Of a stretch of 64,000 nucleotides of DNA, positions 5,601 through 53,990 are shown in pieces (within the stretch, counting starts at the first letter, position 1; every line of letters begins with the position of its first letter). The notes below the pieces were generated by a model. The model was not told the DNA's origin. It did not search any database and saw nothing but the letters and a program-made list of their open reading frames with translations. The DNA is taken from the NCBI GenBank assembly GCA_019096065.1, contig JAGUCH010000001.1, positions 8,928,001-8,992,000 on the forward strand, given 5' to 3'. The translations under genes were made by a program, and so were the position numbers. This DNA comes from Paracyclopina nana (taxonomy: Eukaryota; Arthropoda; Copepoda; Cyclopoida; Cyclopettidae).

Positions 5601-8600
5601 CTCGGCTCGCGTCAATTACGACGTGGCCTGCCCTATGCACTTTGAAAAGTACCCCGTGGACATTCAGAGGTGCAACATCAGCTTCGAGTCATGGGGCCAC
5701 ACGAACCACTACATAATGCTCAGTTGGCTGAGGGAGAAGCGAAAATTCAGCTCAAGCATCGCCCTAGCTCAGTTTGACTTGGATCTGCACTTTATAGAAG
5801 AGCCACCGTCAGCGTTTGGAGCCTTGGGTAAGCCTTTTTTTGTTTTCCTTTTCGCTTGGATCGTTTATTGTGGCGGGGATAAAATGGTCGTCGAGACTCT
5901 GATTTTCTCTGCAAAATTATTCATAGCGAACCGTCATTCTATATGGCTCGATGGGGTATTGTAAAACGCGCTCATCTCAAAATATTCGCTTATGTACTAA
6001 TATTAGGCAGATGCGGCGAAGCATACCTAAGCCTGTTAGTTTATTTACTCAATATCACCTAGCTTGGCCTTGGCTCAATGTTGTATCTGCATCCGCATTT
6101 TTGCCACACTGCATCGCATTTGTTGCTCTCTTGGGTAGCTCGCGGGGAACACCTCACAGTGAAATAGCCTCGGTACGTGCAACCTCAGATGACGATCAAG
6201 TAACAAAGGCTTCTGGGCCCATAATATGCAAATATGACCGAGTAAGAACAGATTACGTTGGGCAGATATAATGCTGAAGCTAGGGTATCTTTGGGTCTTG
6301 TGAGCTGGTCAGGCTTATTTCTGCCGGAAAAGAAACTAGGAATATGTGCCTCAATGCGGTAGTAATGGTATGTAGCCAGAGCCACAACAAGGACATTATG
6401 CAAGATATACCCTGTATCGGCTGCGAGTATTTTACGTGACCGGTCTTGCAGTCACATCATTTGCGCGGATACAAAGATAGATAAACACACCTTCATAGTT
6501 CGGGCCCAAGAAATGAATCGAACAGCGATCTGCTCTGGGGATTGTCTTTGACAGCCTTCCTGGGATTTTTTCGCTTAGTGTTTATGTCATATTTTCCCCC
6601 CAACTCACAGAAGGGTCACTTCTAACAAAAAAGTCGCATCGTTTTCATTGAAAATTGTGCGAAAAAGGCCATCACTAATTCGGCTCTAGATTGATGCTAA
6701 TACTTCAAAATTGACTTCCTTGATGTTTTTGGGCTGCTAAAATGTTATCTTCAGAGATTTTATTTTATCAAACTCAGATTTTGTCAATGAAACTCTATGC
6801 CAAAAGGCTGCAAGAAAATCAGAAAAAAATCATTTGTGCCTATAGATCCCTTGGACTTCAGCATTCCTCAAAGATGCTTTCCAAAAAACTTCAGTAGGAC
6901 ACCTTGGAATAATTTAGTACCCCTGTTGTGTTCATATATCCACATACTTATGAGATTTGGAGGAGTTTTTACAAACCAAACTTGTGGCTATTTCTATTAA
7001 AATTGGGGTGTTTTTGATTAATTTAGGCAATTGGATGCCTAAAAACCTAATTTCTTTACATTTTTCTAGCTTTAGAATAACTTTCCTATGATTTAGATTG
7101 GGATTTATCTAAGTAATGCCAATTTTTGGCATTCTTGAAGTTACGGTGCATTTTCACATACTTCTCAATGATGCGACTTTTTTATTAGGAGTGACCCTAC
7201 TGTGCAACTGTCAGATATTTCATAGCAGCCATTAGATATATGTTGCTGTCCGTGATTGACCGAAAAGGTTCTTGTTTGCATTTGCCCGCCGCTTTGATTC
7301 TTGCCTCTTTTTGCTCCCATTATAGAGGAAAAGATCCTGGGCCCTTAGGCACGGATCGACGGCTTCTCAAGGAAAATGTGTATAGCACAAAATGAGTGGA
7401 ATGGGAATGTGAAAAATGGCGACGACTGAAGCTGAGGAGAGAATTATATAGTTCAGTTCTCTAAGAGTCAATTAAAAGTGCCTCGAGGGGAGAAGATCGA
7501 TCGATCTTGAGCTCCAATACAGGAATTTTTCACAGTCTAAAACGATGTCAGCTTTAAAAAGTCGTGTTTCATCAACGTGATGCAAGCTAGAATTTCTTGT
7601 TAAAAGAAACTGATCGATGTTTGTCGAGTTCTCTTGGCTACCTTAAAGTTGCCTTGTTTGCTGTGCTATCCACCACCTACACCTTCTTGAGCATTTTAGG
7701 CAAATTGTGTTTACAGACTAGCTAGCAAAACAAATGGATGTCATTCAAGTTAATCAGAGGATAATGCATTTCAACTACATTCTTACGGCATCGCCATTAA
7801 TGGTCTTATTTTCGCTGAGCTAAGTATTCAAAAAAGAGCTTCTGAGGCCGTAAAAAGGGACCATAATGATATAGTACCTCCACCCAGAGTAGTTAGCCCC
7901 TCGCACATTCTTAGCCTAGGCTGGTGCGGTTTCATGCAACAGCGGAGATTTGCCGAGGTACTTCGTCTCCTTTCCGCTGAAAAATGGTCATTGCAAATTG
8001 TTTTTTAATTGCCGCTCTAAGCGGCTTTAACTGCGTCAATTCCGAGGTTTATCTGCATAATTGAACAATTCCAGGCCTCTCGAGTCCATTCAAATGGAAA
8101 CCATTTTTTCGAGCATATTTTTAATTATGAAAAAAGGAGTCTGGGGAGGAGAAATGATTAAAGATCTTCTCCTACTCGCAGGCTCTTTTCTTCTTGCCAT
8201 GCCTACGATGCACATTTGCAAAAGGGTGTATTATACACTATGTCCATCGCTTCTGATAAATTGCTCGTTCTGGAAAGCTTTTGGCGAGTGTATTCTTGGG
8301 CGTAGTGGAAGTGATGAATGGGAAGGCGAGAGGCCTCATAATTCACGAGTCAAATATTATTACCGGAAAATTTCAGGCCCCTGTACAGAGGAGAAAGCTC
8401 ATCTGGCTAATACAGAAAGCACAACTTTTGGATGAGCCACAATGATAATGCAGAGATTGTTGAGCGTAAACTAAGTAAAAGCATGTGTTTGCCATGTCGT
8501 TGCCAGTTAGTCTTACTGTTAAAGTTGTTGGTGGGTCCGCGCAAATGGATGCACATCGAGGCCGAATGTATAGCATAACATGAGCCACGAACTGCAACTG

Positions 8601-52129: not shown

Positions 52130-53990
52130 AGGAGAAATATGCCCGTTATCCATGTCAATACGTGTCGATTCGATAAATGTATTCGTTGTACGCTCATTTT
52201 CGTTTTATGCATGGATAGCAATAGCCGGCTCTCTCTAATGATCGAGGTAATCTGGCAAAGCGAGATTTGAAGCGGAATCAAGATGAACGATACGCCTTGA
52301 ATGTCACCAATGTGTAGGCCTCGCAGACGATTAATGTCTCCTGCTCGCATTCGCGTGGCATACTAACCGAGCGATATGGGCATAAAGTGAATTAGAGTTT
52401 GACGTTTTTCGTGAGCCAGGCTCAACGCTGGAAAGGAGCTGCTAATGGACGAAACGGCTTGTATTAATGACCACAGCGGAGCTTCATGAACGAATCAACG
52501 AGGCAGCGGAAAGCAACAACTAATCATTGACCATTAGGTCAAATTACGCAGCAGCCATGTTGAGGCCCATCCAAGCGGAAGTTCATTCTTGATCGCGCGT
52601 GACGTGCTGACGTCGTAAATATAACCATAGCTCTTTTGGAAGGCAAAGGCATCGACGCCATAAGCTCAAAAGCTCTCAAAGTGCTGCTACAAGGCTTAGA
52701 AACTACAAACTAAATACCACACACACCGCACGCGACGAGCACTTCTAACAACCGCACACTGAATTTATCACTTTATGCGTCTAAAGTAAATAGTTAACTC
52801 GCAGCGTTAAGCACTAAGTGAAAACAAATTGTCTGAATTATGAGTGTATTAATAATTGTCTGTTCAATATTCTTAACTGCATTTGCATTTTTTTGATGTG
52901 TGCGGCATTTAGTATTGTGCGGTATTTAGCAGAATGGTTTGCGTTTGTGTGCGGTATTTAGTAAATACGCTTAAAAACAAACATATATTGCCACTGCATC
53001 TCACGCTTAATACCTTCAGGGACACGTGCAGAGTCAAAGCGAAAACTTTGTGGGTGTGTTTTCAACTCCACGGAGCCACTGAATAACTTCAAAGCGCTTT
53101 TCGGCGGCTCTTTTTTAACAGAAGGCCTCTCGGGTATGCTAGAGCACTGAATTTTGATGAGAGTATCTCGTTCTCAACAACAGCTGAACTTTTTTAGGTA
53201 CAGCTCAAACTACAGCTCCGATCGGAACGAAATTTTGAGGGGTTTTTGCGAAAAGCTTGTCTTGAGCTTAGATTAATGCTACAAAGTCGGTTCAGATGGC
53301 GCTAGTTGCATTCTGAAATAACTCTGTTTGTGGGCTTTTTTCGGAATCAAACGGCCCATTGCGGAATCTGTCATCCGTTAACACACACAATGTGCGAGGT
53401 TGAAACGCCGGCCCGCGTTGATGAAATCATGCACCCACTTTTATTCGCGCCCAAATTATGACGTCATTTTGATCTGAAGTGCCATCTGTGTACGAGTGCA
53501 GCGCGCCATGACGCTTTGATGGAAAAGTGGAAAAAAATTGTTTTTGGGCTAAATACTAAAAGCTGTGAAAAGTTGCTAGTTTTTGCTTAAAACAGCCCAT
53601 AAGTCAATAGTTACCTGATGACAAAAGTTTTTATCAGGTAGCACCATAAAAGCCAACATTTTTTAACTCTGCTGAGATTGGTCTACAAAAAGGCGGAAAA
53701 ATTAGGTTGCAATTGAAGAACTTTAGAATTTTCAGGCTTTTTTCAGCTGATTGGCCTGATTTTTTTTCGCTAAGTCGCATGAGACGTAATATGGCTCCGA
53801 TATTATTTTTCGAATTTTTGATAAATCATAAGGGAAGGCCAATTTTTTGGCAAAATTGGGCAGATGTCGTGCTACCGTAGGCCGGTCGGCCACCTTTAGG
53901 CTGTTTATTGGAACAGAGTCTTCAGAACAATCTTCTCATCAAAATCTAGAGCTCTAGGGTAAGCAACTATCCATTCACGTACCCTAAGAA
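52130..53990. other. Intergenic region with a small inverted/direct repeat
   Basis: Expected to hold the receptor 3' end. At 52709-52962 an inverted pair (ACTAAATACC then CACACA) encloses about 250 bp, and three direct copies of GTGCGG(C/T)ATTTAG occur at about 52900, 52917 and 52949. The remainder is AT-rich and carries no coding frame I can support. Confidence 0.45.
52709..52962. repeat. Short inverted repeat with three internal direct copies
   Basis: The left arm ACTAAATACCACACACA (52709-52725) is the reverse complement, with few differences, of the sequence ending at 52962. Two more copies of the right-arm core lie inside at about 52898-52912 and 52917-52929. No flanking target duplication is evident, so a transposon is possible but not shown. 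Confidence 0.4.

Follow-up and report, generated by a model that had tools for sequence, protein, structure and literature searches.

Miniature Transib-type transposons with ends resembling the V(D)J 12-signal in the genome of the copepod Paracyclopina nana

Can a short DNA element whose two ends both resemble the 12-bp-spacer signal of V(D)J recombination be placed within the Transib superfamily, and, if so, what moves it and how much does the resemblance mean? The question is raised by a locus in a 64,000-nucleotide stretch of the genome of the copepod Paracyclopina nana, referred to here as the window. Transib transposases are relatives of RAG1, and their transposons are characterized by 5-bp duplications and CAC-type ends. 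Read from the letters and placed through a copy search and a copy alignment, the element is 599 bp long (6606–7204, forward strand, subfamily A of the family described below) and is framed, as a first-pass annotation had claimed, by the 5-bp direct repeat CAACT at 6601–6605 and 7205–7209. Its two 35-bp terminal inverted repeats (left, 6606–6640, forward strand; right, 7170–7204, reverse strand), which were also followed by a genome end-pattern search and a duplication check, differ from each other at 3 positions. A heptamer-like block occupies positions 1–7 of each end and a nonamer-like block positions 20–28, leaving a gap of exactly 12 bp. Scored against the V(D)J signal (RSS) blocks CACAGTG and ACAAAAACC, the left end carries CACAGAA (6606–6612, forward strand, 5 of 7) and ACAAAAAAG (6625–6633, forward strand, 7 of 9). 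The right end, read inward on the reverse strand, carries CACAGTA (7198–7204, 6 of 7) and ATAAAAAAG (7177–7185, 6 of 9), which bears out the RSS-like ends proposed for this locus. The window also contains a PDCD4-like gene, with 74% identity to Tigriopus californicus and 68% to Lepeophtheirus (the best named organisms, both copepods, among 120 of 1227 matches listed) and up to 98% to unnamed proteins. A nematode host, suggested by the look of a receptor-like frame that has no Pfam match, is overturned by these copepod matches.

Searches for copies and transposases were made in the element's own genome (92 Mb in 10 contigs). Far from being unique, an outcome the first-pass annotation had allowed for, the ends are found 128 times with a 35-bp pattern allowing up to 3 mismatches, compared with 0 for a reversed control pattern. 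Near-full-length elements occupy at least 41 places including the window's, 40 of them 595–599 bp long, a count that is a lower bound as 40 of 91 candidates were scored. The 40 aligned copies can be divided into subfamily A (9 copies including the window's, mean pairwise identity 98.2%) and subfamily B (31 copies, 96.8%), with 91.7% identity between subfamilies, and the nine subfamily A copies show a mean divergence of only 1% from their own consensus. Copies at about 70–75% identity to the window copy coexist with copies at 97–98%. The 35-bp ends of the old copies are kept at 87–93%, and the adjoining 40 bp are down to 64% (ungapped counts over 20 ends of 11 copies). The first bases of the CAC end are mutated in a few old copies; element ends otherwise start 5'-CAC.

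Longer copies of 744–1472 bp were considered as parental elements and rejected. Their eight inserts share no common sequence and four of them (L048, L053, L054 and L061) have inverted ends of their own, so these are element copies holding other sequence. The insert of L048 is a 145-bp near-palindrome, a small element with inverted ends, and that of L061 spans 800 bp and has TGGTTAACGGCTAATCGG-like ends. Three partnerless ends (L058, L063 and L064) were assigned to truncated copies. At L058 (G000:C7:5683393-5690393) the copy breaks off at 224 bp, and the frames beyond it resemble by eye an LTR retroelement (integrase-like and envelope-like). At L063 and L064 (G000:C3:6.51-6.54 Mb), roughly half of an element recurs next to very long, mucin-like frames rich in Ser/Thr, which form a tandem cluster. 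A search with a variant-end pattern gave three places, one a known copy and two (L073 and L074) without any end pair. At L030 (G000:C4:4570909-4572106) two element copies adjoin, the second having inserted precisely at the first one's CAATG duplication, and CAATG is thus present three times.

An exact 5-bp duplication is found in 38 of 40 bounded pairs (39 genomic regions), with repeats of 2 and 3 bp once each and of 4 and 6–11 bp never; in the two exceptions, L017 and L035, one of the ends is damaged. Together with the 128 ends against 0 and the 41 near-full-length places, these duplications put the transposon status of the element beyond chance. In a wider set, the duplication is exact in 46 of 53 distinct bounded copies besides the window's (54 pairs with 47 positives were counted, one pair having been fetched twice). 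The seven others comprise L017, L035 and L055 with a damaged end, L052 and L057 with a one-base difference and the same flanks, L054 with one extra base, and L061, where the end is mutated and the duplication unrecognisable. Duplication length had been singled out in advance as informative, with 2, 3 or 8 bp pointing away from Transib; the prevailing length is 5 bp in both sets, and 8 bp never occurs among the 40 pairs. The target consensus is CANTG within a longer palindrome, roughly TYACAC-CANTG-GTGTRA (47 sites, one counted twice). G/C is found mostly at the outer positions only of these duplications, which does not clearly fit the GC-biased duplications reported for Transib and RAG in the available text of PMC8289069, a point that speaks against the Transib assignment.

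Empty sites are available for five copies: their flanks, once joined, align without a break to paralogous repeats that hold the duplication just once, where the two flanks meet. The flanks of L034 match L091 (289 bp, 96.5%) and L054 (137 bp, 96.4%), and those of L022 match an interspersed repeat in the window itself (53572–53857, 82% identity). Further empty sites are L066 for L048 (87%), L002 for L009 (79%) and, in the case of L053, its own tandem repeats (78%); a sixth copy, L018, gave no spanning alignment. Where the first-pass annotation had looked to an empty allele elsewhere as support, the empty sites seen here are paralogous repeats.

The same genome also encodes Transib transposases. 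A Transib motif matched residues 408–462 of the solved HzTransib, and this piece, used as a genome query, found 12 places, the last two at E 0.1 and 0.7. With the frame of L079 as query, 16 matches were obtained at 13 loci, including those two places, now at E below 1e-80. The frames of L079, L084 and L093 align over most of the length of HzTransib, with E values of 4e-52, 2e-43 and 2e-59, respectively. Single frames match RAG1 only weakly (E 0.009 or worse). With L093 and 13 database proteins combined into a profile of 14 relatives, the match to RAG1 is at E 5e-14 and that to RAG1L (6b40) at E 1e-19. Motifs aligned to the catalytic residues D126, D225 and E436 of HzTransib (numbering from the available text of PMC6941560) are present at 12 of 12 loci examined. 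The first-pass annotation had pointed to full-length relatives with a RAG1-like core as a check, and the 13 loci, their HzTransib matches and the profile provide them. The Pfam RAG1 model has no match over the genome; it is also silent in 14 of 14 control genomes and hence uninformative. Its cut-off was not exceeded by the frames tested, and the L093 frame has no Pfam match. According to the available text of PMC7878743, the repeats of the copepod Caligus rogercresseyi include Transib.

In eight elements scanned, the gene takes the form of two frames, of about 250 and 450–530 codons, which we infer to be two exons. L093 (G000:C1:2177400-2181400) represents a Transib lineage whose protein is 36% identical to that of T79, has CACAGTG ends with a T-run replacing the A-run, and carries a single uninterrupted frame of 703 codons, about 180 residues of which lie upstream of the HzTransib-aligned part. 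Most of the resident transposase frames are uninterrupted; L095 (C9:774695) is a Transib fragment with an internal stop and a tentative right end only. An open-frame scan of the eight elements revealed no RAG2-sized frame, the longest frame besides the exon frames being 135 aa on the same strand, with one of 172 aa on the opposite strand of T82.

Nine of the transposase-carrying elements are bounded on both sides, with lengths of 2.9–3.4 kb (T77, 3109 bp; T78, 3136; T79, 3357; T80, 3163; T81, 3180; T82, 3181; T83, 2942; T84, 3345; L093, 3020) and an exact 5-bp duplication in 9 of 9. The termini of T77–T79 are CACAGAAGGTTAAAA, and CACAGTGG starts most ends of T80–T84, L075, L076, L093 and L094; the right end of T80 is CACAGAG, and that of T83 is damaged and reads CATTGGG. 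Most Transib ends and the element have a common layout, consisting of CACAG, GG at positions 8–9, an A-run near positions 22–27, and then TCGCAT. Over 11 families the best conserved end columns are CACAG, the GG, the A-run and the TCGC that follows it, the last in 7–8 of 11 families per position. The flank at the right end of T78 (L078) reads CACACTAGGGTAATTTGGGACTT directly before the T78 end and resembles the end of an old element subfamily; judging from these letters, T78 may have landed in or beside an element relic.

Comparing the ends position by position links the element to these Transibs. Its ends are identical to those of T79 at 25–26 of 35 positions (differing at 9–10), to those of T78 and T77 at 21–23 and to those of T81 and T84 at 20–23, while the best of 1656 other CAC-starting 35-mers of the window reaches 20 of 35 when four ends are compared in this way. 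Several more Transib ends do no better than these controls (T80 right, 15–16; L075, 16; T83, 17–18; L093, 11–14; L095, 15–18). None of the 13 loci yielded a coding element with AGGGTCACT ends like those of the element itself, and the element interior has no match longer than 25 bp to the surroundings of Transib genes, the best (E 0.003) lying outside T84. Since no coding element has the exact ends and the interior is unrelated, the element is filed as a non-autonomous Transib, with its mover left unassigned among the resident transposases. We consider it highly probable (about 0.9) that the element is a Transib lacking a transposase, likely cut and pasted in trans by the Transib transposase of longer elements of the same genome with a like end layout. 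This is in line with the earlier proposal of a non-autonomous Transib, which is favored by the many copies, the 5-bp duplications, the empty sites and the resident Transibs with like ends and a RAG1-like core. In such a process the transposase would pair two like ends (12/12, without 12/23 asymmetry), cut at CAC to leave flank hairpins as HzTransib and RAG do, and insert the element with a 5-bp stagger into CANTG-like palindromic targets. The cutting, hairpin and insertion steps are carried over from HzTransib and RAG as described in the available portions of PMC6941560 and PMC8355894.

Alternative explanations differ in which part of this reading they dispute. One accepts a Transib MITE but supposes that its parent with AGGGTCACT ends has died out or is absent from the assembled sequence, that none of the 13 resident transposases moves it and that the family is silent now. 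This is possible, if somewhat doubtful: no coding element with such ends was found and the family is old, as copies at about 70–75% to the window copy stand beside those at 97–98%, but the nine subfamily A copies at about 1% from their consensus indicate moves that are recent relative to the old subfamilies, and the majority of resident transposase frames are uninterrupted. The remaining ends in the end-pattern search leave some room for a partner, as 100 of the 128 ends are listed and one with 1–3 end mismatches and a transposase too decayed for the L079-frame search could hide among the other 28. Another alternative disputes the superfamily and places the element in the hAT5 group as a MITE of hAT transposons that make 5-bp duplications, which we regard as highly improbable. 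In its favor, CACAG has A in second and G in fifth place, which fits the hAT end pattern. Duplications of 5 bp are likewise known for hAT5 in the available text of PMC12730594, but the end layout here matches that of Transib elements in the same genome.

What the likeness to the RSS means is a separate matter. Each end of the element scores 12 of 16 against the 12-RSS and other Transib ends score 8–13 of 16, but 6 of the 1656 control 35-mers also reach 12 of 16, the best (15 of 16) scoring above any Transib end. At about 1 in 276, the RSS likeness of a single end is thus just moderately unlikely and does not form the strong part of the case. The 20 ends counted, from 12 elements with the damaged right end of T83 excluded, can be considered together: the exact heptamer CACAGTG starts 13 of 20 and CACAG starts 20 of 20. 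Their RSS nonamer match peaks at a spacer of 12–13 bp (4.9 and 5.4 of 9 on average, a shoulder reaching 15 bp and controls at 2.4) and shows no peak at 20–23 bp, although these ends do not count as independent, T81/T82 and T84/L094 being close pairs, and those of L075, L076 and L094 were found through patterns requiring CAC and an A-run, a slight bias towards the nonamer peak. Between Transib families, most of positions 10–23 vary far more than the flanking blocks, like a bipartite signal. Inside the element family, conservation is 93% in the spacer, 89% in the heptamer and 87% in the nonamer, so the family does not behave as a loose bipartite signal. The first-pass statement that the ends keep the 12-RSS layout stands for the layout, which is found with its 12-bp spacer at both ends, but not for the word "keep", which implies common descent with the RSS, a step beyond the likeness seen here; the spacer, moreover, is conserved like the blocks within the family. 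The likeness could be convergence in an element that is nonetheless a Transib, its inner block being AAAAACTCGCAT and not ACAAAAACC and its A-tract having arisen independently at such a distance, and we place this a little short of even odds. The conserved TCGC has no RSS counterpart, the most divergent lineage, L093, combines CACAGTG with a T-run, and chance 35-mers equal the element's score or surpass it; the nonamer peak at 12–13 bp with none at 20–23 bp and the frequent exact CACAGTG pull the other way.

A more far-reaching proposal concerns the protein that reads these ends. An N-terminal motif, for instance KKKPRTSFRSLSASQQ in T78, stands at the place of RAG1 GGRPRQHLLSLTRRAQK, the start of the RAG1 nonamer-binding domain. 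Comparing a profile built from 21 Transib N-terminal parts with one built from 15 RAG1 sequences (selected among 120 matches listed) gave a probability of 15.5% and E 0.0017, compared with 0.3% for a reversed control, and an earlier such comparison gave 1.2% and E 0.045. At the sequence level this is weakly suggestive of the Transib N-terminal part being the counterpart of the nonamer-binding domain. The full proposal, which we hold to be rather unlikely, is that of a crustacean Transib lineage with symmetric RSS-type ends (CACAGTG and an A-rich block 12–13 bp inside) that are recognised by an N-terminal (K/R)PR-hook domain corresponding to the nonamer-binding domain of RAG1. If true, a transposon lacking RAG2 would have had the bipartite 12-signal, together with the domain that reads it, before any 12/23 rule existed.

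Comparison with known systems shows where the elements differ. Like HzTransib and insect Transibs, they have CAC ends, 5-bp duplications and a homologous transposase with the same DDE residues; unlike them, the A-block lies at 12–13 bp at both ends of most elements and CACAGTG is frequent (13 of 20 ends). The L093 frame is also about 180 residues longer N-terminally than HzTransib, and in other elements about 250 codons lie in an upstream frame of their own. In the available text of PMC8355894, symmetric Transib ends are shown with 20–22-bp spacers and a few families have 12/23 ends, and in that of PMC8289069 the ends of most families are symmetric, with ends of the HzTransib type resembling the nonamer little or not at all, both in agreement with the earlier claim that most described Transib ends have no nonamer at 12 bp. 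Drosophila Transib5 and Anopheles Transib2 and N1–N3 (PMC8355894, as far as available) share, at one end, a heptamer and nonamer of RSS type separated by 12 bp, but they are asymmetric (12/23), whereas the elements here have like ends (12/12 or 13/13). Among the literature matches listed, as far as their text is available and the founding paper (PMC1131882) aside, none describes a Transib whose two ends both carry 12-bp spacers. ProtoRAG and the protostome RAG-like transposons resemble the elements in their CAC ends and 5-bp duplications, but they carry RAG1L and RAG2L, whereas the elements here show one transposase gene; Arthropoda are among the groups without RAG-like sequences in the available part of PMC7204232. 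With the V(D)J RSS and RAG1/RAG2, the elements share CACAGTG (in several of them), an A-rich block at 12–13 bp and 5-bp duplications on transposition. They differ in having no 23-bp partner and no RAG2-sized second frame, and in their extra TCGCAT and family-conserved spacer. RAG1 alone has no preference for 12/23 over 12/12 in the accessible portion of PMC8355894, which fits a symmetric system without RAG2. The novelty would lie in the layout of the ends within Transib, and the RAG signals may descend from such ends or may only resemble them. Because known Transib ends mostly resemble the heptamer only, the rise of the heptamer–spacer–nonamer signal calls for an explanation. A Transib set with largely uninterrupted genes, both blocks at 12–13 bp on both sides and no RAG2 offers natural substrates together with their enzymes, with which one could test directly how a symmetric transposon may turn into a 12/23 system.
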